This document shows positions 16,042 through 45,330 of a stretch of DNA of 64,000 nucleotides, piece after piece. Positions within the stretch are counted from its first letter, which is position 1. Every line of letters begins with the position of its first letter. The DNA is from Acidimicrobiales bacterium (GTDB lineage Bacteria; Actinomycetota; Acidimicrobiia; Acidimicrobiales; SKKL01): positions 1-64,000 of the forward strand of contig JAXHLR010000003.1 in the NCBI GenBank assembly GCA_034521975.1, in the 5' to 3' direction. The position numbers and the translations under genes were made by a program. Below the pieces are notes generated by a model. It searched no databases. It was not told where the DNA came from and saw nothing but the letters and a program-made list of their open reading frames with translations.

Positions 16042-16260
16042 GGGGGAGTTCTCCTTGATCCGTCCAGGCGGGTGACGGACGAAAAGGAGCCCGGCACCCT
16101 GTGGTGTGCCCGGGGCCGGGTTCGCTGTGGCTCCACGCAGACGCTGCGACCAGACTTGTCTGCGGTTCAAAGCCTCCCCGAGTGCATCAACGGCGGTCCG
16201 TGGCAAACCTCCGTGCTGCTCTCTCAGAGTGGTTATGTTCACTCTGTGTGCAAGGATACG
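16042..16260 (-). promoter_or_regulatory. Structured leader RNA (copy A) before LPxTG gene
   Basis: Read on the minus strand, this 5' region shares a long colinear set of blocks with the region before the LPxTG gene at 23883. Shared blocks include GATGCACTCGGGGA, CTGGTCGCAGC, GGAGCC, CGAACCCGGCCCCGGG and TTTCGTCCGTCACCC. A 7-bp stem CGCAGAC/GTCTGCG (16158-16164 with 16136-16142) encloses a loop whose last 11 bases are identical to those of the other copy. Downstream, GGAGCC (16129-16134) can pair with GGCTCC (16086-16091), followed by TTTT, which looks like an intrinsic terminator placed before the ribosome-binding site. A riboswitch-like attenuator is inferred; I do not recognise the class. 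Confidence 0.6.
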
Positions 16261-24674: not shown

Positions 24675-24895
24675 CGGAGCCTCCTCCGTCCCGTGGGTGA
24701 CGGACGAAAGGCGAACCCTTGGCCCGCCACCCTGGTGGGTGGTTCCCGGGGCCGGGTTCGCCTTGGCTCCTCACAGGCGCTGCGACCAGTCCAGCCTGTG
24801 GATCGATGCTTCCCCGAGTGCATCTCGGGAGTCGTGGCGCTTCCGGGGTGCTCTCAGCGGGGGTGAACTCCTGGTTCACCCTCTGTGGTAATGAT
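24675..24895 (-). promoter_or_regulatory. Structured leader RNA (copy B) before LPxTG gene
   Basis: This matches leader A block by block. The 7-bp stem is CACAGGC/GCCTGTG (24794-24800 with 24772-24778), a compensatory change at two pairs relative to copy A, around a loop sharing CTGGTCGCAGC. GGCGAACCC (24754-24762) pairs with GGGTTCGCC (24710-24718) over 9 bp, extended to 11 by AA/TT, and is followed by TTT: a convincing intrinsic terminator before the start codon. Covariation plus a terminator argues for a regulatory RNA that controls readthrough; the ligand or protein is unknown. Confidence 0.65.
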
Positions 24896-30295: not shown

Positions 30296-30973
30296 ATGAA
30301 CCTCGATCGGGTCAGCGTGGTCATCCCGGTGTTCAACCGGCCGGCGATGGTCGTCGAAGCGGTCGACAGCGTCCTCGACCAAGAAGGGGTTGAGGTCGAG
30401 GTGATCGTGGTCGACGACGGTTCGACCGACGACACCCCGGAGGTGGTCGACCGACTCGCCGAGGTTCTGGGAGTGACGGCACTGCACCAACCCAACCGGG
30501 GCCCGGCGGCAGCGCGAAACGCCGGTGTCGCCGCCTGCACGGCACCGTGGCTCGCGTTCTTGGACTCCGACGACCTCATGCTCCCGGGACGCCTCCGCCG
30601 CCAGCTCGACGTGCTGGGCGAGACACCCTCGGCCAGCGCGGTGATCGGGCTCGGCCGGATCCAGATCGATCCGGGTGTCGAGCTCCCCGTCGAGATCGCG
30701 ACTCGACCCCCTGGCGATCGGGAGACGTCCTTCTACACGATCTCGATGCTCTTGGCCCGCCCCCTCTTCGAGGAGCTCGGGGGGTTCGACGAGTCGCGAC
30801 CGGTCGCCGAGGACTCCGACTTCCATGCCCGGCTGGTGGCGGCCGGCCACCGGGTCCACAAGCTCGATGAGCCGCTGTTCGTTCGGCGTGTGACCGGCGA
30901 CAACCTGATCTATGGCATCGACTACCGCTGGGAGATGTTCGACCTCATCCGCCGACACCGGCGCTCGAGCTGA
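30296..30973 (+). CDS. Family 2 glycosyltransferase
   Basis: A 225-aa GT-A fold transferase. It has SVVIPVFNRP, the nucleotide-binding IVVDDGSTDDT, the PNRGPAAARNAG helix, and the metal-binding LDSDD. The protein is short for a GT2 (usually 250-330 aa), with little beyond the catalytic core. It comes directly before the PqqD/HPr-kinase-like cassette and shares its direction. Confidence 0.82.
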   Translation: MNLDRVSVVIPVFNRPAMVVEAVDSVLDQEGVEVEVIVVDDGSTDDTPEVVDRLAEVLGVTALHQPNRGPAAARNAGVAACTAPWLAFLDSDDLMLPGRLRRQLDVLGETPSASAVIGLGRIQIDPGVELPVEIATRPPGDRETSFYTISMLLARPLFEELGGFDESRPVAEDSDFHARLVAAGHRVHKLDEPLFVRRVTGDNLIYGIDYRWEMFDLIRRHRRSS

Positions 30974-31059: not shown

Positions 31060-31497
31060 TTGCTGCACCAGAGGTACCAGTTGAACGCGCAGTCGATCGT
31101 GGCCGAGGAGCTCGACGGAGAGGTCATCGCCATCGACATGTCGTCCGGCGTCTACTACAGCATGTCGGGCTGGGCGGCATGGGTCTGGTCGGCACTGGCC
31201 GCCGGCGCAACGCCCACCGAAGTGGCATCGATCCTCTCCGAGCGCGCCTCAACCCATGCCGCCTCCGACTCCGAGGAGGCTGTCGAGGCGTTCCTCGACC
31301 AGCTCCGCAGCGAAGGGTTGCTCGCCGAGCGTGGAGAGGATCGCGCCCCCGACCCGTTGCCTGACACTCCGGCCGGTGCTGATGCTGGAGACCTCCGGGT
31401 CGAGCGCTACACCGACATGGAGGACCTCATCCTCCTCGACCCGGTTCACGACGTCGACACCGCGGCCGGCTGGCCCAAGCCTGCCCCCGTCGAGTGA
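31060..31497 (+). CDS. PqqD-like protein with conserved acidic tail
   Basis: A 145-aa protein. Residues 1-90 form a PqqD/RRE-type winged fold (VIAIDMSSGVYYSMSGWAAWVWSAL, then a helical part ending in FLDQLRSEGLL). A disordered linker leads to a tail with YTDMEDLILLDPVHDVD and GWP. The RRE fold normally binds leader peptides in RiPP pathways. The start is a TTG after GGGAGGG. It opens a four-gene coupled cassette with GTGA overlaps. No separate precursor peptide is visible. Confidence 0.75.
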   Translation: MLHQRYQLNAQSIVAEELDGEVIAIDMSSGVYYSMSGWAAWVWSALAAGATPTEVASILSERASTHAASDSEEAVEAFLDQLRSEGLLAERGEDRAPDPLPDTPAGADAGDLRVERYTDMEDLILLDPVHDVDTAAGWPKPAPVE

Positions 31498-32534
31498 CCG
31501 ACGAACTCTCGACGAGGTTCACAGCCGAGCTCCAGCGGTCGTGGGAGGCCGCGTCGACGGGCACCGAGGTCTTCGACCGGGCGGTCTCGATCGCGGGGCT
31601 CACCTTCTGTGCCACCGCGGCGGGCGATTACCTCCTGGATCGCATCTGGCCCGCTCTCGGTCACCACGAAAGGTCCACGAACACGGCGAACCTCACGCTG
31701 CGGATGTGGGAGCTTCGGTCGAGCAATGCACCGAGGCCATCGCTGCCCACCGCCTTGTTCACCGACGATGGGCGGTTGAAGCACCACGGCGATCTGGGTG
31801 AGGTTCGGGTCCACTTCGACCCCGACAGCCAGATGCTGGTCGCCTTCGACCGTCGGGCCGGGCTCGCCTGGTGCTGCGTGGAGGATATGGCCCAGATCAC
31901 CTGGTGGGAGCGGGCGGCGCCGTTGCGGCGGCTGTTCGCGTGGTGGCTGGAGCTCCATGGCCGTCCGATGATCCACGCCGCCGCGGTCGGCAGTCCCGAC
32001 GGAGCGGTCCTGCTCGCGGGTCCCAGCGGGTCGGGCAAGTCGACCACCGCTCTGACGGCTGCTCGCGCCGGTTTGGGCTATCTCGATGACGATCACACGG
32101 TGGTCAGCTGCCACCCGTCACCGCGGGTGCACTCTCTCTTCTCCACCGCGAAGCTCCACCTCGACAGCCTCGACGGCGACCGGTCGTTCGCCAGCTACCT
32201 GCTCGATCCGGTCGGCGAGGGAGCCAAGGCAGTGGTGAGGATGGACCGGGTGCCGTGGGTGAACCTGGTCACCTCGGCTCCGGTGGCGGCAGTTGCCGCG
32301 ATCACGGTGAGTCCGACCGGCACCACTGAGCTGCGGCCGGCGAGCCCGGGACAGGTGCTCGGTGCCCTCGCGCCGTCGACGATCCTTCAGCTGCACGGAA
32401 CCGGCGCCGCGACCCTCTCGGCCTTGTCCCGGCTGGTGCGACAGGTGCCTACAGCCACCCTCGAGGTCGGATCCAACCCCGATGAGGTGGTCGCGGCGGT
32501 CAGCAGGCTCACCCGCGGCAGTGTGGAGTGGTGA
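31494..32534 (+). CDS. HPr-kinase-like ATPase
   Basis: A 346-aa protein whose C-terminal half resembles the HPr kinase/phosphorylase catalytic domain: a histidine in IHAAAV, Walker A GPSGSGKS near residue 178, and the YLDDDHTVV strand. The first 140 residues are a separate alpha/beta domain. Homologues act as kinases on lasso peptides, and others sit in polysaccharide loci with PqqD-like proteins. The GTG start overlaps the PqqD-like stop. Confidence 0.75.
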   Translation: MTDELSTRFTAELQRSWEAASTGTEVFDRAVSIAGLTFCATAAGDYLLDRIWPALGHHERSTNTANLTLRMWELRSSNAPRPSLPTALFTDDGRLKHHGDLGEVRVHFDPDSQMLVAFDRRAGLAWCCVEDMAQITWWERAAPLRRLFAWWLELHGRPMIHAAAVGSPDGAVLLAGPSGSGKSTTALTAARAGLGYLDDDHTVVSCHPSPRVHSLFSTAKLHLDSLDGDRSFASYLLDPVGEGAKAVVRMDRVPWVNLVTSAPVAAVAAITVSPTGTTELRPASPGQVLGALAPSTILQLHGTGAATLSALSRLVRQVPTATLEVGSNPDEVVAAVSRLTRGSVEW

Positions 32535-33217
32535 CGCGTTGGCGGGTCAGCGTGGTCATCGCGGTGCGCGACGGTGAGCGCTACCTGGGCGAGACGCTGG
32601 AGTCCATCACCACCCAGAGCCGCCCGGTCGACGAGGTGATCGTCGTCGACGACGGATCGACCGACGCGACGGTGCCGCTCGCCCGGTCGTTCGGCGAGAC
32701 CGTGACGGTCGTGGAGCAACCAGCCCGGGGAGCGGGGTCCGCCCGGAACACCGGCATCGCCTTGGCGACCGGCGAGGTGCTGGCATTGTGCGACGCCGAC
32801 GATCTGTGGGTCCGTTCCAAGACCGAGCGCCAGCTGGGGATGATCGAGGATCCGAGCCTGGCGGTGGCGGTGTTCTGCGGGGTGGAGGAGTTCCTCAGCC
32901 CCGACCTCGACCCCGACGCACGTCGTGGCCGGGCCCCCCGCACGCTCACCGGCCCGACCCGGATGGCGTCAGGGCTGCTGGCCACCCGCGCCGCGTTCGA
33001 CGCGACGGGACCCTTCCGTGAGGTCGATGGGGCCGACTGGTTCGACTGGTGCTCGCGGTTGGCCGACGCGGTGCCCGCGGTGCGCCACCATCCAGAGGTG
33101 CTGCTCCGCCGGCGTCTGCACGCGAACAACAGCACCCTGATCGGTGGCGACGCCTCGGCGGCACGGCTCGCGGCGGTTGCGGAGCATCTGCGTCGCCGGC
33201 GCGGGGCGCAGGGGTGA
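32531..33217 (+). CDS. Family 2 glycosyltransferase in the PqqD/kinase cassette
   Basis: A 228-aa GT-A glycosyltransferase with SVVIAVRDGERYLGETLES, VIVVDDGSTDAT, RGAGSARNTGI and the LCDADD metal site. It is compact, like the one at 30296. The GTG start overlaps the preceding stop and its stop overlaps the next start (both GTGA), so it is part of a single translational unit. Confidence 0.8.
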   Translation: MTRWRVSVVIAVRDGERYLGETLESITTQSRPVDEVIVVDDGSTDATVPLARSFGETVTVVEQPARGAGSARNTGIALATGEVLALCDADDLWVRSKTERQLGMIEDPSLAVAVFCGVEEFLSPDLDPDARRGRAPRTLTGPTRMASGLLATRAAFDATGPFREVDGADWFDWCSRLADAVPAVRHHPEVLLRRRLHANNSTLIGGDASAARLAAVAEHLRRRRGAQG

Positions 33218-34332
33218 GACGGCCGGGGCGGCTGGGCACCGGCTGGCCCGACGAGGTCGACCTGTCCCTGGTGCGGGCGGCGCTGGGCCCGCCGGATCGG
33301 ACCCTCTCGGAGTGGGAGCGCTTCACCGGCGCGGTGTCCCTCGCCGACGATCACGTCCCCGAACGGCACCGGCTCCTGTCCGCCGTCTGGGGCCAGCTCC
33401 ACCACGGAGCTCCCGGCCACCGCGACCTTCCGGTGCTGAAGGGCATCTCCCGCCGCACGTGGGTGAACAACCAGCGAGCGCTGTCCACCCTCGCCCGCGC
33501 CGTCGAGGCGCTGGGCTCGGGCTCGCGACCTTGGGCGCTGGCGCCGCACGCTCAGCTGGCGCTCGGCGACGACCTGGGCTGGCTCCCGTCCGACCCGCTC
33601 ACGCTGCTCGTCCCCGCCGTGGAGGTCGATCCCGTCACCGCCGCCCTGGTCGGGGCGGGCTGGTCGACAACGAGGGGTCGTGGCGCACCCTGGGTTCGGC
33701 CCCGGGTGGTGCGCGACCCGGCCGGCGGCGAGCTCCGGTTGTTGTCACGTGCCGGAGTCTGGTTGGTCGAACCGGACGAACCGCATCGGTCGCTGGATCC
33801 ACTGCTGGAGGCGGCCCGCCCGGCCACGGTGGGGCAGGCGACGGTGCCGGTCCTGGACCCGGCCGATGCGCTGGTCGCGCTCTGCTCAGAGGGTCCGACG
33901 CCGGGTTCGCCGGTTCCGCTGCGGTGGATGGTGTTGGTCGCTGCACTGGTCGGGGGGACGGACCTCACCCCAGAGCGGGTGGCTGCCACCAGCCGACGGT
34001 TCCGGATCGAGCCGCTCGTGCGGGGCGCGCTCGAGTTCCTCTCCGAGGTGGTGGATGTCGGCGATGCCGACCAGCTCCGTGCGCTGGTGCCGGAGGGCGG
34101 TACCGTCGGGCACCGGCAGTTGGACCGTGCCCTGGTGGCCCGGCGGGGGCCGGCGGCCGGACTGCGAGCGGAGTGGGTGCGCAACCGCCGATCCTGGTCC
34201 GGGCGCGAAGCGGTCACCCGCCTTCCCGGCTTCTTGACCTCACGCTGGGGGCTCGACTCGGCCTGGCAGCTCCCCGGTGCGGTCGCCGGCCGCGTCACGG
34301 CGACGGTCGGGCGCAAGCCATTCCGAGGTTGA
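33214..34332 (+). CDS. Nucleotidyltransferase-like protein (NTP_transf_5 type)
   Basis: A 372-aa protein resembling the uncharacterised nucleotidyltransferase family often found with HPr-kinase-like and PqqD-like genes. The family core would be LKG...SDIDLLV; here the equivalent stretch reads LPSDPLTLLVPAVEV, losing the second aspartate, so catalysis may be weak or absent. The C-terminal half is helical. The GTG start overlaps the GT2 stop. Confidence 0.6.
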   Translation: MRRPGRLGTGWPDEVDLSLVRAALGPPDRTLSEWERFTGAVSLADDHVPERHRLLSAVWGQLHHGAPGHRDLPVLKGISRRTWVNNQRALSTLARAVEALGSGSRPWALAPHAQLALGDDLGWLPSDPLTLLVPAVEVDPVTAALVGAGWSTTRGRGAPWVRPRVVRDPAGGELRLLSRAGVWLVEPDEPHRSLDPLLEAARPATVGQATVPVLDPADALVALCSEGPTPGSPVPLRWMVLVAALVGGTDLTPERVAATSRRFRIEPLVRGALEFLSEVVDVGDADQLRALVPEGGTVGHRQLDRALVARRGPAAGLRAEWVRNRRSWSGREAVTRLPGFLTSRWGLDSAWQLPGAVAGRVTATVGRKPFRG

Positions 34333-39022: not shown

Positions 39023-41332
39023 ATGAGCGCGCTCATCGTCGAGGGCGTTCCCGGCATGCGACGTGTCCTCCGGGGTCACCTGCGCGATCGAGGCGTGGAG
39101 GTGAGGACAGCGGGGTCGGTCGGCGAGGCCCGAGAGGAGATCGGTCGCCAATCGTTCCTCGTGGTCATCGTCGATCTGGTGCTGCCCGACGGTTCTGGGC
39201 TCGACGTGCTCGACACGCTCCGTGGTTCCGGATCGGTGGCCCACGTGATCGTCATGAGCGATTCCCCGGCCGACGCTGATCGCGTCGCCGCGCTCGAGCA
39301 CGGTGCCGACGACTACGTGGTCAAACCGTTCCTGATGCGCCAGCTCGCGGCGCGCGTCCTTGCGGTCAGGAGGCTCGTCGATCCCGTCAACGACGCTCGG
39401 CTGCACATCGGTGCCGTCGTCGTCGACCTGCGGACCCGCGACGCGCAGGTAGATGGTCGACGTCTCGACCTCACCGACAAGGAGTTCGACCTCCTCGCCT
39501 ATCTCACGGCGCGACCGGGGCACACCTTCAGCAAGGCCCACCTGCTCTGGGCGGTGTGGGGTGCGGACGCCGGTCTCTCGCTGAGGACGGTGGCCGACCA
39601 CATCCGCAAGCTTCGGACCAAGGTCGAAGACGACGCTTCCCGGCCACGCATCCTGCGCACCGTCCGCGGCTCGGGGTACCGGTTGGAGCGATCCGACCAG
39701 GACCATCCTGACGGTGGCGCCGGCCCGGGCCCGGTTGCGGGCTCGCTCGTCCATGTCCAGGGCCGCATCGTGAAGGCCGACCAGGCCACCGCCACACTCC
39801 TCGGGTTCGACGCTGCCGGCGAGCTGACGGGTCGCCAGATCTTCGAGTTCGCCACACCGGGTGACATGGAGCCCGCTCGGCAGCGCATGGCGGCAACCGC
39901 ACCCGAACCGCGACCGCGCACTCAGCTGATCGATCTGGAACACACCGACGGCACGCAGGCTTCGGTCGAGGTCGCGTCGGAGCCTTGCCTCTGGAGGGGC
40001 AGCAGCGCCGAGCGCCTCCGGTTCACCCACGTGCCCGACGTGTCGGCCCGGCTGCGACGTCTCGTCACCGGCGTCTTGAGCGAGGTGGCCGACGCGGTGA
40101 TCATCACCGATCTCCATTTCCACGTGCGCAGCTGGAACACCGCCGCCGAACGGCTCTACGGCTGGAGGGAGGAGGAGGTGCTGGGACGCCACGTGCTCGA
40201 CGTCCTGCAGTGGGCCGGCGATGCCGGTGCGCTCGCCGCGACGTGGGAGGGCCTCGAGGTCAGCGGACGGTGGCGAGGTGAGAGCCAACAGGTCACGAGA
40301 GACGGTTCGACGATCGGGGTTCTGGCCTCCACCACCTTGCTTCGAGACGACGACGGTGGCCCGGTACTCATCGTGTCGGTCAATCGTCCGATGCCGCCCG
40401 AGGCGACAACCCGCCAGGCTCAGGACGCACTCGACGACGAGGAGATCCGTCTCGGACTGGAGAACGACGAGTTCGAGGTGTACTTCCAGCCCGTGGTGGC
40501 TCTCGCCGACGGTTCGGTGCTCGCCATGGAGGCACTGGCCCGCTGGAACCACCCGACGCGCGGCCTGCTGGCGCCGGACAGCTTCATTCCCGCAGCTGAG
40601 CGCAGCGGAGCCATCGTCGAGCTCGGCGGCGTCGTTCTCGAGAAGGCGTGCATCCAGACCGCCGAGTGGCGGCGGGCGGGTCACGAGATCGACGTGACGG
40701 TCAACCTGTCGGCCCGGCAGCTCTCCCACCCCGAGTTCGTCGACCGCACCACCGCCGCGCTGGCGTCATCGGGCCTCGAAGCCGGCCGCTTGTGGCTCGA
40801 GGTGACCGAGACCTCGCTCGTCGAGGAGGTCGACCGTGCCGGCGAGGTGCTCTTCCGCCTGGCCGACCTCGGCGTGAACATCGCGATCGACGACTTCGGA
40901 ACCGGCTGGGCCAGCCTCACCTACCTGCGGAGCTTCCCGATACACGCCCTCAAGATCGACAGCAGCTTCGTCGCCGGCGTCGGCCGCAACGTCAACGACA
41001 CGGCGATCGTCCGGTCGATCCTGTCGCTTGGCACCGACCTCGACCTGTTCGTGATCGCCGAGGGGATCGAGACGCTCGCCCAGCAGAAGGTGTTGCAGAG
41101 GTTGGGATGCACCCTCGGCCAGGGATTCCTGTACGCCCGGCCCGCCCCGGCAAGTGCCGTGTCGATCGGCGAGCGACGCTCGGCTCACCCCCTGTCGACG
41201 ACGTCCACGTGGCGTCGACGCGGACCACACCGCCGCCAGGTCCCATCCCGGCCGACGATCGACCCGGTTCGTCATCTGTCGACGGCCCAGATCGTGGCGG
41301 CGGAATCACGACGGGACGACGACTCGTCGTAG
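39023..41332 (+). CDS. REC-wHTH-PAS-PAS-EAL protein (c-di-GMP phosphodiesterase)
   Basis: A 769-aa regulator. Residues 1-120 are a receiver with phosphoacceptor in VVIVDLVLPDGSG and lysine in VVKPF. Residues 130-225 are an OmpR/PhoB-type winged helix (LTDKEFDLLAYLTARPGHTFSKAHLL, then VADHIRKLRTKV). Two PAS-like domains follow (about 240-330 and 345-465). The EAL domain (about 480-725) keeps the EAL motif (MEALARW), NLSARQL, EVTETS, IDDFGTGW, LKIDSSF and EGIET, so it should hydrolyse c-di-GMP. A disordered basic tail closes it. A DNA-binding and c-di-GMP-degrading activity in one chain is uncommon and would couple transcription to second-messenger removal. Confidence 0.88.
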   Translation: MSALIVEGVPGMRRVLRGHLRDRGVEVRTAGSVGEAREEIGRQSFLVVIVDLVLPDGSGLDVLDTLRGSGSVAHVIVMSDSPADADRVAALEHGADDYVVKPFLMRQLAARVLAVRRLVDPVNDARLHIGAVVVDLRTRDAQVDGRRLDLTDKEFDLLAYLTARPGHTFSKAHLLWAVWGADAGLSLRTVADHIRKLRTKVEDDASRPRILRTVRGSGYRLERSDQDHPDGGAGPGPVAGSLVHVQGRIVKADQATATLLGFDAAGELTGRQIFEFATPGDMEPARQRMAATAPEPRPRTQLIDLEHTDGTQASVEVASEPCLWRGSSAERLRFTHVPDVSARLRRLVTGVLSEVADAVIITDLHFHVRSWNTAAERLYGWREEEVLGRHVLDVLQWAGDAGALAATWEGLEVSGRWRGESQQVTRDGSTIGVLASTTLLRDDDGGPVLIVSVNRPMPPEATTRQAQDALDDEEIRLGLENDEFEVYFQPVVALADGSVLAMEALARWNHPTRGLLAPDSFIPAAERSGAIVELGGVVLEKACIQTAEWRRAGHEIDVTVNLSARQLSHPEFVDRTTAALASSGLEAGRLWLEVTETSLVEEVDRAGEVLFRLADLGVNIAIDDFGTGWASLTYLRSFPIHALKIDSSFVAGVGRNVNDTAIVRSILSLGTDLDLFVIAEGIETLAQQKVLQRLGCTLGQGFLYARPAPASAVSIGERRSAHPLSTTSTWRRRGPHRRQVPSRPTIDPVRHLSTAQIVAAESRRDDDSS

Positions 41333-42786: not shown

Positions 42787-43569
42787 ATGCACGTTGCACC
42801 GGTGAGGCTGTTGTGGACCGGAGGGTGGGACTCGACCTTCCGGCTCTTGCAGCTGTGTCTCGTCGAGGGCCGCGAGGTGCAGCCGATCTATGTGATCGAC
42901 CCCGACCGGCCGAGCACACGGACCGAGCTGTTGACCATGAGGCGCATCCGCGAACGGATCGTCGAGCGAGGCGCGGGCGGTCTCGTCTCGCCCACCGAGG
43001 TGCACGTCCGTACCGACTACGAGGTCCCCGACACCGTGAGCGAGGCCTTCGAGCGGGTCGCGGCACGGGTGACCGTCGGCACCCAGTTTCGGTGGCTCGC
43101 CGCGGTCGCCATCGCCAACGGCTGGCACGACGTCGAGATCGGGATGCACCGGTGGGAGAGCGCGCGCCCGTTCACCGAGCTCGCGTTCGGCGGACAGGTC
43201 TCCGCTCATCCCACGATCGCCGACCCCGATGTGCGCCAGCTGCTCGGCGCGTGGTCGTTCCCGCTGCTCTCGCTGTCGAAGCGCGACATGGGTGCCATCG
43301 CCGAGCGGGAGGGGTTCCTGGACATCTTGTCGCTCCGATGGTTCTGCCACCACCCGATCGCGGGACGCCCATGCGGCTTCTGCGTTCCATGTGTCGATGC
43401 CCGGCAGGAGGGCGCCGCGACAGGGTCCGCCTTCTTCAGCAAGCCGGTCATCCTCATGCTGAGGGGCTGCCGGTTCATGCTGCACCGATACCGCAGGGCC
43501 AGGACCTTCGCCGAACGGGCCCGGCAGAAGCTGGGCGGACGAAAGAAGCCTGCCGAGTCACACAGTTAG
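42787..43569 (+). CDS. PP-loop ATPase resembling QueC (7-deazaguanine synthase-like)
   Basis: A 260-aa protein with an N-terminal PP-loop (RLLWTGGWDSTFRLL) and a C-terminal CGFC-x2-C cluster (GRPCGFCVPCVDARQ) like the zinc site of QueC. QueC makes preQ0 from carboxy-deazaguanine. None of queD, queE or folE is nearby, and the gene lies among glycosyltransferases, so a role in activating a carboxylate for a surface polymer or modified nucleotide is possible. Its 3' end overlaps the convergent asparagine-synthetase-like gene by 12 bp. Confidence 0.65.
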   Translation: MHVAPVRLLWTGGWDSTFRLLQLCLVEGREVQPIYVIDPDRPSTRTELLTMRRIRERIVERGAGGLVSPTEVHVRTDYEVPDTVSEAFERVAARVTVGTQFRWLAAVAIANGWHDVEIGMHRWESARPFTELAFGGQVSAHPTIADPDVRQLLGAWSFPLLSLSKRDMGAIAEREGFLDILSLRWFCHHPIAGRPCGFCVPCVDARQEGAATGSAFFSKPVILMLRGCRFMLHRYRRARTFAERARQKLGGRKKPAESHS

Positions 43570-45330
43570 CAGAGCCCGGTCGAGAGCGACTGCGATCTGT
43601 GCGACTCTCAGGACTCTGCTCGGGTGCGAGTCCTGCTTCACCGTGTATCCGGCGAGTTCCTGTGCCCGGTCCACAGCATCTCGAGGGAGTACGGCCAGCT
43701 GGGTCAGGGCAGCTCGCGTTCGCACCTCGGCCGTCTGCCACGGTCCTGGGCTCGGTGCCCCGGGACGATGTCCACGCACCTTGTGATGCAGGGCGAAGGC
43801 AGCGCCGACGGCTGCGGCGGGAAGGAGGTTCGCGCGAGGTCCGAGGCGAGGAATCTGGCCTTCGGACCGGGGCACCCACCCACTGCGCCCCATGGCGTGG
43901 CCGAAAGCGCGATGGAAGAAGACCCGGTTGAGCTTCTGTACCTCGGGAACCACCGACACGCACTGCGCGACGTTCCCCATCAGGAACGGGGAAGCCGACC
44001 GGAGTCGAGCGCGGTTGGAAGCGAGGAACCCGTACGCCGGCTTGTCCGAGAGCGGCCAGATCTCCAGCCAGGAGGACAGATCCTCCGCTGGCCGCATCGA
44101 CTCGATCAGCGCAGCCTTTCGGGCGACTCGATCGGCCACCGCCGAATCGAGCTCTGGGTCGGCGAAGCCCGCGTCAGTCCTGGCACGAGCGAGCCCCAGA
44201 GCCACTCCGCGGTAGGAGCGCTGCCGCTGGCGAAGGTACGCCGCCTTCAGCAGGATGTCTGCGCCAAAGCCATCGAGAAAGAGATCGACCTCGAGGTTCT
44301 CACAGAGCCCGCTCGAGTGCGCATGCGCCAGATCCACGCCGGGTCCGACGTCCTCGACAAGCTCTGTGAGGGCTCGGGTGTAGTGGTCGGGGGCCCGGTA
44401 GCGGATCGCGAGTGGGAGGCTGAGCCGTCGCGCAGCCAGGTCCGCGAGCCGGTACTCGCGGTTGAGGGCATCGAGAAATATCACTGCCTTCAGCTCGCCA
44501 TCTTCAGGAACGCGCTCGCTGGCCAGCGCTCCGATCACCCGCGAGTCCTCACCACCGCTGAACATGATCGTGGTCCGCGGGTGGTGCCCAAGCAACCAAT
44601 CCAGGTTCTCCACCATCGCGTCGCGGGTCGCATCGGCGACGTCACCGAGCTCATCGGTGGTGATCGACCCATTGCGTGTTGGCCGCCAGTAGGAGTGACC
44701 TTCGAGGTTTGCCGGCATCCCGGCGTCACCGGGTGGAAGCTCCAGGATCCGTCCCGGCCACATGCGCTGGACGTCTTCGTAGGCGGTGTGTGGCGAGGTG
44801 ATGGCACCGCGCTCTGCGAACTCCCGGATCGAGGTCTCGTCCACTCGCCCGCGCCCGGCGACCCTGGCGACATCCACCAACTGGGTCCCGATGCACCAGT
44901 CCCCGCGACTTCCGACGAGGGTCGTGGTGTAGACGGGGATCGAGCCCATGTGATCGACGAAGCACAGGAGCCCCTCACGCGACAGGACCATTCCTGCAAG
45001 GTGCCCCGTGAGCCTCGTTCGCAACGTATGACCCAACTCAGCCGCCGTAGGATCCACGACTTGTAGCGACAGCGCGATCGCTCGGGCGTCGAGCCCCCCG
45101 GCCCGGCTGCCTGCGAGCACGACCGTTCTTCCGGTCTCCGCATCGGTGTACAGGTCGACCCCGCCTCGGACCAACAGCCGACACCAGCTGGCCGCTTGGG
45201 GCACCTCACGGTACCCGTTGCTCCGAATCATCTCGTCCTGGCTCGTTGCGAGCACGACGAGCCAACCAGGTGGGCTCCCACTCACACCATCCAGTTCATC
45301 GACTCCGATCGCCGGACCCTTCCCTTCCAC
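43558..45330 (-). CDS. Asparagine-synthetase-like protein
   Basis: A 590-aa protein of the asparagine-synthetase B fold. The N-terminal part resembles a glutamine amidotransferase (LTGHLAGMVLSREGLLCFVDHMGSIPVYT), but the nucleophile cysteine is not at the N-terminus, so ammonia must come from elsewhere or a different nucleophile is used. The synthetase half has the PP-loop IMFSGGEDSRVIGALA. Relatives include cyclases for lasso peptides and amide-forming enzymes in surface-sugar loci. The GTG at 45330 is a formal start; ATG (MIRSNGYREV) about 33 residues later is also possible. GC content is a little lower than in neighbours. Confidence 0.75.
   Translation of the reverse strand: MEGKGPAIGVDELDGVSGSPPGWLVVLATSQDEMIRSNGYREVPQAASWCRLLVRGGVDLYTDAETGRTVVLAGSRAGGLDARAIALSLQVVDPTAAELGHTLRTRLTGHLAGMVLSREGLLCFVDHMGSIPVYTTTLVGSRGDWCIGTQLVDVARVAGRGRVDETSIREFAERGAITSPHTAYEDVQRMWPGRILELPPGDAGMPANLEGHSYWRPTRNGSITTDELGDVADATRDAMVENLDWLLGHHPRTTIMFSGGEDSRVIGALASERVPEDGELKAVIFLDALNREYRLADLAARRLSLPLAIRYRAPDHYTRALTELVEDVGPGVDLAHAHSSGLCENLEVDLFLDGFGADILLKAAYLRQRQRSYRGVALGLARARTDAGFADPELDSAVADRVARKAALIESMRPAEDLSSWLEIWPLSDKPAYGFLASNRARLRSASPFLMGNVAQCVSVVPEVQKLNRVFFHRAFGHAMGRSGWVPRSEGQIPRLGPRANLLPAAAVGAAFALHHKVRGHRPGAPSPGPWQTAEVRTRAALTQLAVLPRDAVDRAQELAGYTVKQDSHPSRVLRVAQIAVALDRALLTV

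Follow-up and report, generated by a model that had tools for sequence, protein, structure and literature searches.

The 64,000-nucleotide stretch analyzed here (hereafter the window) covers positions 1 to 64,000 of contig JAXHLR010000003.1 in an Acidimicrobiales genome (GCA_034521975.1; 3.3 Mb in 10 contigs, 98.7% complete). At 31060–34332 it carries four plus-strand open reading frames (ORFs) encoding, in order, a PqqD-like protein resembling a RiPP recognition element (RRE; RiPP, ribosomally synthesized and post-translationally modified peptide), an HprK-like kinase, a family 2 glycosyltransferase (GT2), and a homologue of NTP_transf_5 (PF14907). GTGA overlaps at 31494, 32531, and 33214 couple the four genes in the DNA, as an earlier interpretation made from the letters alone (the sequence-only reading) had described. 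The PqqD-like protein (31060–31497, TTG start) matches PF05402 at 38.1 bits against a cut-off of 23.4, and the C-terminal tail noticed in that reading, YTDMEDLILLDPVHDVD, is present and runs on to GWP; the conserved core of this tail, YTDMEDLILLDPVHDVDTAAGWP, lies at 31408–31476. The kinase gene (31494–32534) scores 313 bits with an HprK model built from cassette loci, the GT2 gene (32531–33217) scores 96.6 bits with PF00535 and 213 bits with the cassette GT2 model, and the NTP_transf_5-like gene occupies 33214–34332. Another plus-strand GT2 gene directly upstream of the PqqD gene (30296–30973; PF00535 117 bits, cassette GT2 model 186 bits) belongs to the same family as the GT2s of cassettes in other bacteria, and no ABC gene was found within the window's own cassette. 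Our analysis suggests that the cassette represents a little-noticed pathway with a peptide substrate possibly built into its own binding protein.

Within the PqqD-like protein, conservation is highest in the tail. A search of 395 genomes of the class with the kinase alone as query gave 18 matches at E ≤ 1e-10, the window genome included, and 13 of the 17 other kinase-bearing genomes have a tailed PqqD gene. Because these relatives were found via the kinase, the tail was not selected for in the resulting set of 14 sequences (13 plus the window copy), and its recurrence is far beyond chance. The 14 share on average 59% pairwise identity over the 24 tail columns, against 15% over the 36 linker columns and 31% over the 79 domain columns, so the check proposed in the sequence-only reading, that the tail be more conserved than its linker, came out in its favor. 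Five tail residues (D, D, P, H, and G) are invariant in the class set. Across 11 pairs of related loci, 8 of them from a tail-selected set, codons with a non-synonymous difference were fewer than those with synonymous-only differences in the tail (33:94), more numerous in the linker (120:45), and about equal in the domain (244:235); judged by these codon patterns, the tail is under strong purifying selection. Among the four class genomes lacking a tailed gene, one match (L045) lies on a contig of 3.6 kb, on which no PqqD is visible, and the other three (L050, L051, and L052), the weakest kinase matches of the 18, combine a B2-type peptidase (Transglut_core3) with a PqqD that lacks the tail and show no GT2 of the cassette family. 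Tailed and untailed forms thus look like two kinds of cluster, the tailed kind being without a peptidase. The kinase was absent from one same-genus relative and two other same-family relatives searched, and a first scan of genome contigs with the kinase as query gave no match.

Tailed PqqD proteins are widely but patchily distributed. A broad scan of 84,980 species' genomes, using a PqqD alignment and one pattern within the tail, matched 293 stretches, of which 222 encode relatives; the best 80 of these 222 are the 80 loci referred to below. By record title, they include Actinobacteria, Chloroflexi, Alpha-, Beta-, and Deltaproteobacteria, Verrucomicrobia, Acidobacteria, Planctomycetes, Cyanobacteria, Bacteroidetes, Nitrospirota, Gemmatimonadetes, Bacillota, and others. 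The window's phylum gave 7 hits in 396 genomes, one of them spurious: the hit in genome G438 (locus L139) is not a tailed PqqD and was discounted, leaving 6 of 396. The phylum of a Dehalococcoidia metagenome-assembled genome (L056) has the tailed form in 5 of 251. Using models built from the loci, we detected GT2 at 71 of the 80 loci, HprK at 67, NTP_transf_5 at 65, and ABC exporters at 38; for the 58 loci with at least 8 kb of downstream sequence, the corresponding counts were 54, 53, 50, and 30. Polysaccharide-type genes surround many of the cassettes. The arrangement varies in places. At the class loci L041 (5046–6032, minus) and L042 (10653–11624, minus), an NAD-dependent epimerase/dehydratase-like gene separates the PqqD gene from the kinase gene, and at L059, L075, L107, and L129 a tailed PqqD stands beside ABC exporters and AMP-binding/PP-binding genes, with few or no other partners detected.

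Tail variants were also observed. The Aestuariivirga genome of L101 encodes a second, divergent tailed PqqD (L148, 7164–7613, minus) that ends in DDMTSIITMDPIHDIDPQRGWP and has no [FYW]xxP. At L080, L111, and L120 (Thermodesulfovibrionia/Nitrospirota) and L125 (Gemmatimonadetes), a second WP-containing unit follows the first GWP, for example SGWPNVNENKGWPTRDPD; going by the letters of these tails, it looks as if their last part had been duplicated.

By the sequence and fold of its relatives, the PqqD-like protein is a lasso-type RRE. The relatives' profile matches the lasso RRE TbiB1 at E = 1.8e-18, and the best fold matches of a model of the L079 relative among PDB entries (Foldseek) are TbiB1–leader complexes (5v1u and 5v1v). 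No NCBIfam model names the family: the matching models describe other PqqD families, and those listed for the window PqqD and for L079 score below their cut-offs. The consensus of the tailed relatives is FxxPxLEKYTDMQDLLLLDPIHEVDExGWP, fused to the RRE. Counting backwards from the D of DMQD, position −10 is F/Y/W in 72 of the 80 loci, −7 is P in 75, and −5 is L/V/F/I/M in all 80; all three positions lie outside the pattern used to find these loci. According to the available text of one study, leader peptides bind discrete lasso RREs through [Y/W]xxPx[L/V/I/F/A] (PMC13381572), and YxxP is listed as a lasso recognition sequence in the part consulted of another (PMC12710340). The [FYW]xxPx[L/V] element that precedes the tail core at most of the 80 loci matches this published leader motif of lasso peptides and linear polyphosphorylated peptides (LPP).

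Structure prediction of the L079 protein places this motif at the RRE. AlphaFold2 (91 alignment rows; mean predicted local distance difference test score, pLDDT, 83.3; predicted template modeling score, pTM, 0.73) returned the RRE fold, a linker, and an extra strand. The extra strand comprises residues 113–116 (LEKF), just past the P of the motif; its block is modeled at pLDDT 81–88 and was obtained in both of our jobs. Since the strand is present and confidently modeled, the motif strand is predicted to sit in the RRE leader groove in cis. The conserved core DMQDLLLLDPIHEVDxxGWP was left free, at a pLDDT of about 50–54 in both jobs. The second job joined the L079 PqqD to its in-frame kinase as an artificial single chain, with one TGA read through (79 rows), and gave a mean pLDDT of 90.7 and a pTM of 0.88, with the LEKF strand seen again. 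The kinase part matches PEPCK folds at E of about 1e-10. Because this pTM is near the ceiling allowed by the disordered part, the joint model suggests a defined mutual arrangement of RRE and kinase. The complex prediction called for in the sequence-only reading thus hints at an RRE–kinase pairing, with the tail core not placed on the kinase.

The enzymes assigned in that reading were borne out as families, in part against low scores. The window kinase matches HprK-type models weakly, but its modeled homologue has a PEPCK/HprK fold. The His/P-loop Lys/Asp-Asp pattern, matching the His-Lys-Asp-Asp motif described for lasso kinases in the available text of PMC9266682, occurs in 81 of 85 kinase homologues, the window copy included; of the other four, one has Glu-Asp instead and three lack a canonical P-loop by pattern. 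At L095 (12260–14074), an HprK-like kinase is naturally fused to a GT2 domain (PF07475 25 bits, below its cut-off; PF00535 117 bits), which supports a working link between kinase and GT2. The window's fourth gene reaches 22.5 bits with PF14907, below the cut-off of 31.2, yet 141 bits with the cassette's own NTP_transf_5 model, so its nucleotidyltransferase-like assignment held. A column check against 90 relatives, in which the residues of K-G are kept at 80% and 92%, R at 98%, and those of DxD at 86% and 87%, showed that the window protein lacks K-G, R, and DxD altogether. Since these family-conserved residues are absent, the window NTP_transf_5 is probably inactive. At L041, L042, and L036, an NTP_transf_5 gene with intact KG/R/DxD is accompanied by a second, degenerate one; the pairing suggests a putative heterodimer or pseudoenzyme partner. 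Elsewhere in the window genome (contig C10, 96830–98918; L153 and L155), an untailed PqqD (65.5 bits) adjoins an intact NTP_transf_5 (129 bits); no B2 or GT2 model match was found around this pair, and the kinase-model match there was very weak.

We interpret the gene set as a self-presenting RiPP-like system of the phosphorylated-RiPP (paeninodin/LPP) kind, with RRE and precursor-like peptide combined in cis in one protein, and we put the probability of this reading at about 45%. The PqqD-like lasso-type RRE would carry its own precursor-like peptide via a variable linker; [FYW]xxPx[L/V] is predicted to dock in the leader-binding groove in cis, and the invariant DMQDLLLLDPIHEVDxxGWP would be presented to the cassette enzymes. 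If the enzymes act as their counterparts do in paeninodin, pseudomycoidin, and LPP, the presented protein may be phosphorylated or polyphosphorylated by the HprK-like kinase; NTP_transf_5 may then attach a sugar or nucleotide at the phosphate, which the GT2 enzymes may extend. An ABC exporter would be part of the system at about half of the loci. As there is no leader peptidase partner, the product probably remains on the RRE protein, which could then serve as a peptide-bound acceptor or carrier in surface-glycan synthesis. In the window genome, the kinase, the GT2s, and the tail core look intact, and the local recognition motif and the NTP_transf_5 active site appear decayed. The sequence-only reading had proposed that the tail is the substrate of the kinase in a self-contained system. 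A substrate fused to its RRE has become more concrete because a recognition motif heads the tail and is predicted to bind in cis. With the tail conserved and no canonical precursor or peptidase as partner in relatives, the proposal stands unrefuted on both counts; the kinase as the enzyme acting on the tail is the less secure part, with no invariant Ser or Thr and a core that was not placed on the kinase. A stronger version, in which an RRE permanently fused to its own invariant substrate acts as recognizer, leader, and acceptor at once, the kinase phosphorylates it, and NTP_transf_5 and GT2 build a phospho-linked glycan used as primer or carrier for surface glycans in many phyla, seems unlikely to us in its full form.

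An ordinary lasso or LPP cluster, with its precursor and peptidase encoded elsewhere in the genome, would also account for the enzymes, which match those of paeninodin and LPP clusters, and B2 peptidase model matches do occur within about 10 kb at 2 of the 80 loci (L087 and L088). Each of those B2 genes has its own untailed PqqD alongside, and the lasso peptidase that the sequence-only reading suggested seeking in related genomes is not a conserved neighbor. No linked peptidase was found among the 25 commonest of 130 Pfam families in 138 unassigned neighbor ORFs (of 197), Transglut_core3 has no match in the nearly complete window genome, and in the 16 genomes tested SipW-type peptidase (TIGR02228) matches lie on contigs other than that of the tail. 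The search for a separate precursor covered 4544 short ORFs of 40–130 aa within 6 kb of the tail at the 80 loci, so that any peptide below 40 codons would have escaped it, and no cluster occurred in more than three loci; the short-ORF clusters listed are uninformative because they come from three Chloroploca sister loci. A free tail peptide elsewhere was rejected as well: of 16 whole genomes, 15 contain a single tail and the remaining one contains two, the second again belonging to a tailed PqqD. The absence of a precursor peptide, claimed from the window alone, therefore holds within both tests. An ordinary cluster would also find its recognition site already taken in cis, and we consider it very unlikely.

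Several observations weigh against the self-presenting system. The tail has no invariant Ser, Thr, or Tyr: S/T stands at −1 in 72 of 91 sequences, and in 6 of the 91 the stretch from −1 onwards contains neither residue. A conserved Ser is the target of known kinases of this kind, and near-invariance of the core across phyla, unusual for a RiPP product, would suit a docking element equally well. The tail core was not placed on the kinase in the joint model; both AlphaFold2 jobs concern one relative, L079, rather than the window protein, and the joint pTM derives from an artificial chain. Kinase was not detected at 5 of the 58 loci with long downstream sequence, and two of these five, L059 and L075, lack HprK, GT2, and NTP_transf_5 together. 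In the class set (n = 14), the aromatic residue of the recognition motif is present in 8, the Pro in 9, and both in 7, and the window copy has neither. The tail may instead be a docking or regulatory element, whose motif keeps the RRE folded or closed and whose core recruits the kinase, NTP_transf_5, GT2, or the exporter, with a glycan, lipid, or unlinked peptide as the acceptor. Such an element would explain an almost invariant core with no obligatory hydroxyl, GT2s as the commonest partners, and the polysaccharide-type genes near many cassettes, but not why the segment is ordered like a RiPP precursor, with a recognition motif followed by a free peptide, nor why the L079 model fails to dock the core on the kinase. 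We keep it as a real possibility, with the odds somewhat against it, because the acceptor is the weak point of the self-presenting reading, whereas LppK needs Ser: S3T abolished phosphorylation, according to the available text of PMC13381572. The window cassette itself may be decaying, so that the full product is no longer made, as its NTP_transf_5 without KG, R, and DxD, its missing recognition motif, and the lack of the kinase in the three same-genus or same-family relatives searched would suggest. This is rather unlikely in our view, since the tail core, the kinase motif, and the GT2 reading frames are intact, and an intact NTP_transf_5 lies on another contig (C10).

The surroundings of the cassette offer further context. 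At about 45–55 kb, the window carries a WecG-type transferase, an O-antigen-ligase-like gene, GT4 enzymes, and an epimerase. The asparagine-synthetase-like gene that the sequence-only reading placed 11 kb away does exist (43558–45330), on the opposite, minus strand 9 to 11 kb from the cassette. Its match is weak (44056–44571; 22.9 versus a cut-off of 21 bits), a domain search at E ≤ 1e-4 returned no match for it, and it stands outside the conserved gene set. Among the gene clusters identified around the cassettes no asparagine-synthetase-like family appeared, Asn_synthase itself having been searched in the window genome only. A tRNA-Thr call inside the NTP_transf_5 gene (34041–34141) was taken as spurious. 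Two c-di-GMP-II-GCG riboswitches were detected on the minus strand at 16105–16186 and 24741–24822 (51 and 48.4 bits; cut-off 47.9), and a gene at 39023–41332 encodes a response regulator with DNA-binding, PAS, and EAL domains that is possibly connected with them.

RiPP enzymes normally need a separate precursor, and genome mining searches for one; a widespread cassette with a precursor-like tail on its recognition domain would escape such mining. It would also offer an intramolecular RRE–peptide complex that is easy to express and study. Additionally, it could tie RiPP enzymes to polysaccharide synthesis, a link left open by the LPP authors in the text available (PMC13381572).

The enzyme set is already known from LPP and paeninodin clusters. 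A description of such a tailed PqqD was not found in the literature searched, most subscription journals lying outside the search; relative to these papers, the fusion of an RRE with an invariant motif-bearing tail, the lack of a linked peptidase, and the multi-phylum spread appear new. By name, the closest NCBIfam models are those of HPr-rel-A (TIGR04352 and TIGR04353), a PqqD-family chaperone with an HprK-related kinase, but the window kinase scores 26.4 against a cut-off of 200 bits and the window PqqD 16.8 against 35 bits. As far as the consulted text of PMC13381572 describes it, the LPP system shares a discrete lasso-type RRE, an HprK-like kinase, an NTP transferase, an MsbA-like exporter, the [Y/W]xxPx[L/V/I/F/A] motif, the apparent lack of a cyclase, and frequent siting in polysaccharide loci. 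In the same source, the LPP precursor is separate, with a variable C-terminus and the sequence YxxPxVLxHQxIxFETxxS, a SipW-like peptidase is present, and the system is reported as restricted to Bacillota, whereas the precursor-like part described here is nearly invariant and forms one protein with the RRE; there is no linked peptidase, GT2s are constant partners, and the cassette occurs in many phyla. Paeninodin and pseudomycoidin clusters, in the accessible part of PMC9266682, likewise combine an RRE, an HprK-like kinase with His-Lys-Asp-Asp, and the nucleotidyltransferase-like PsmN, which was reported to give a hexose on phosphorylated Ser, a host glycosyltransferase not being excluded; unlike them, the present cassette has no apparent cyclase, no B2 partner, no conserved C-terminal Ser, and no separate precursor. 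The PqqD domain itself resembles TbiB1 and TfuB1, lasso RREs whose solved structures include the bound leader (5v1u, 5v1v, and 6jx3), in fold and sequence; those proteins bind a separate leader peptide, whereas here the leader-like segment is predicted to be held in cis.

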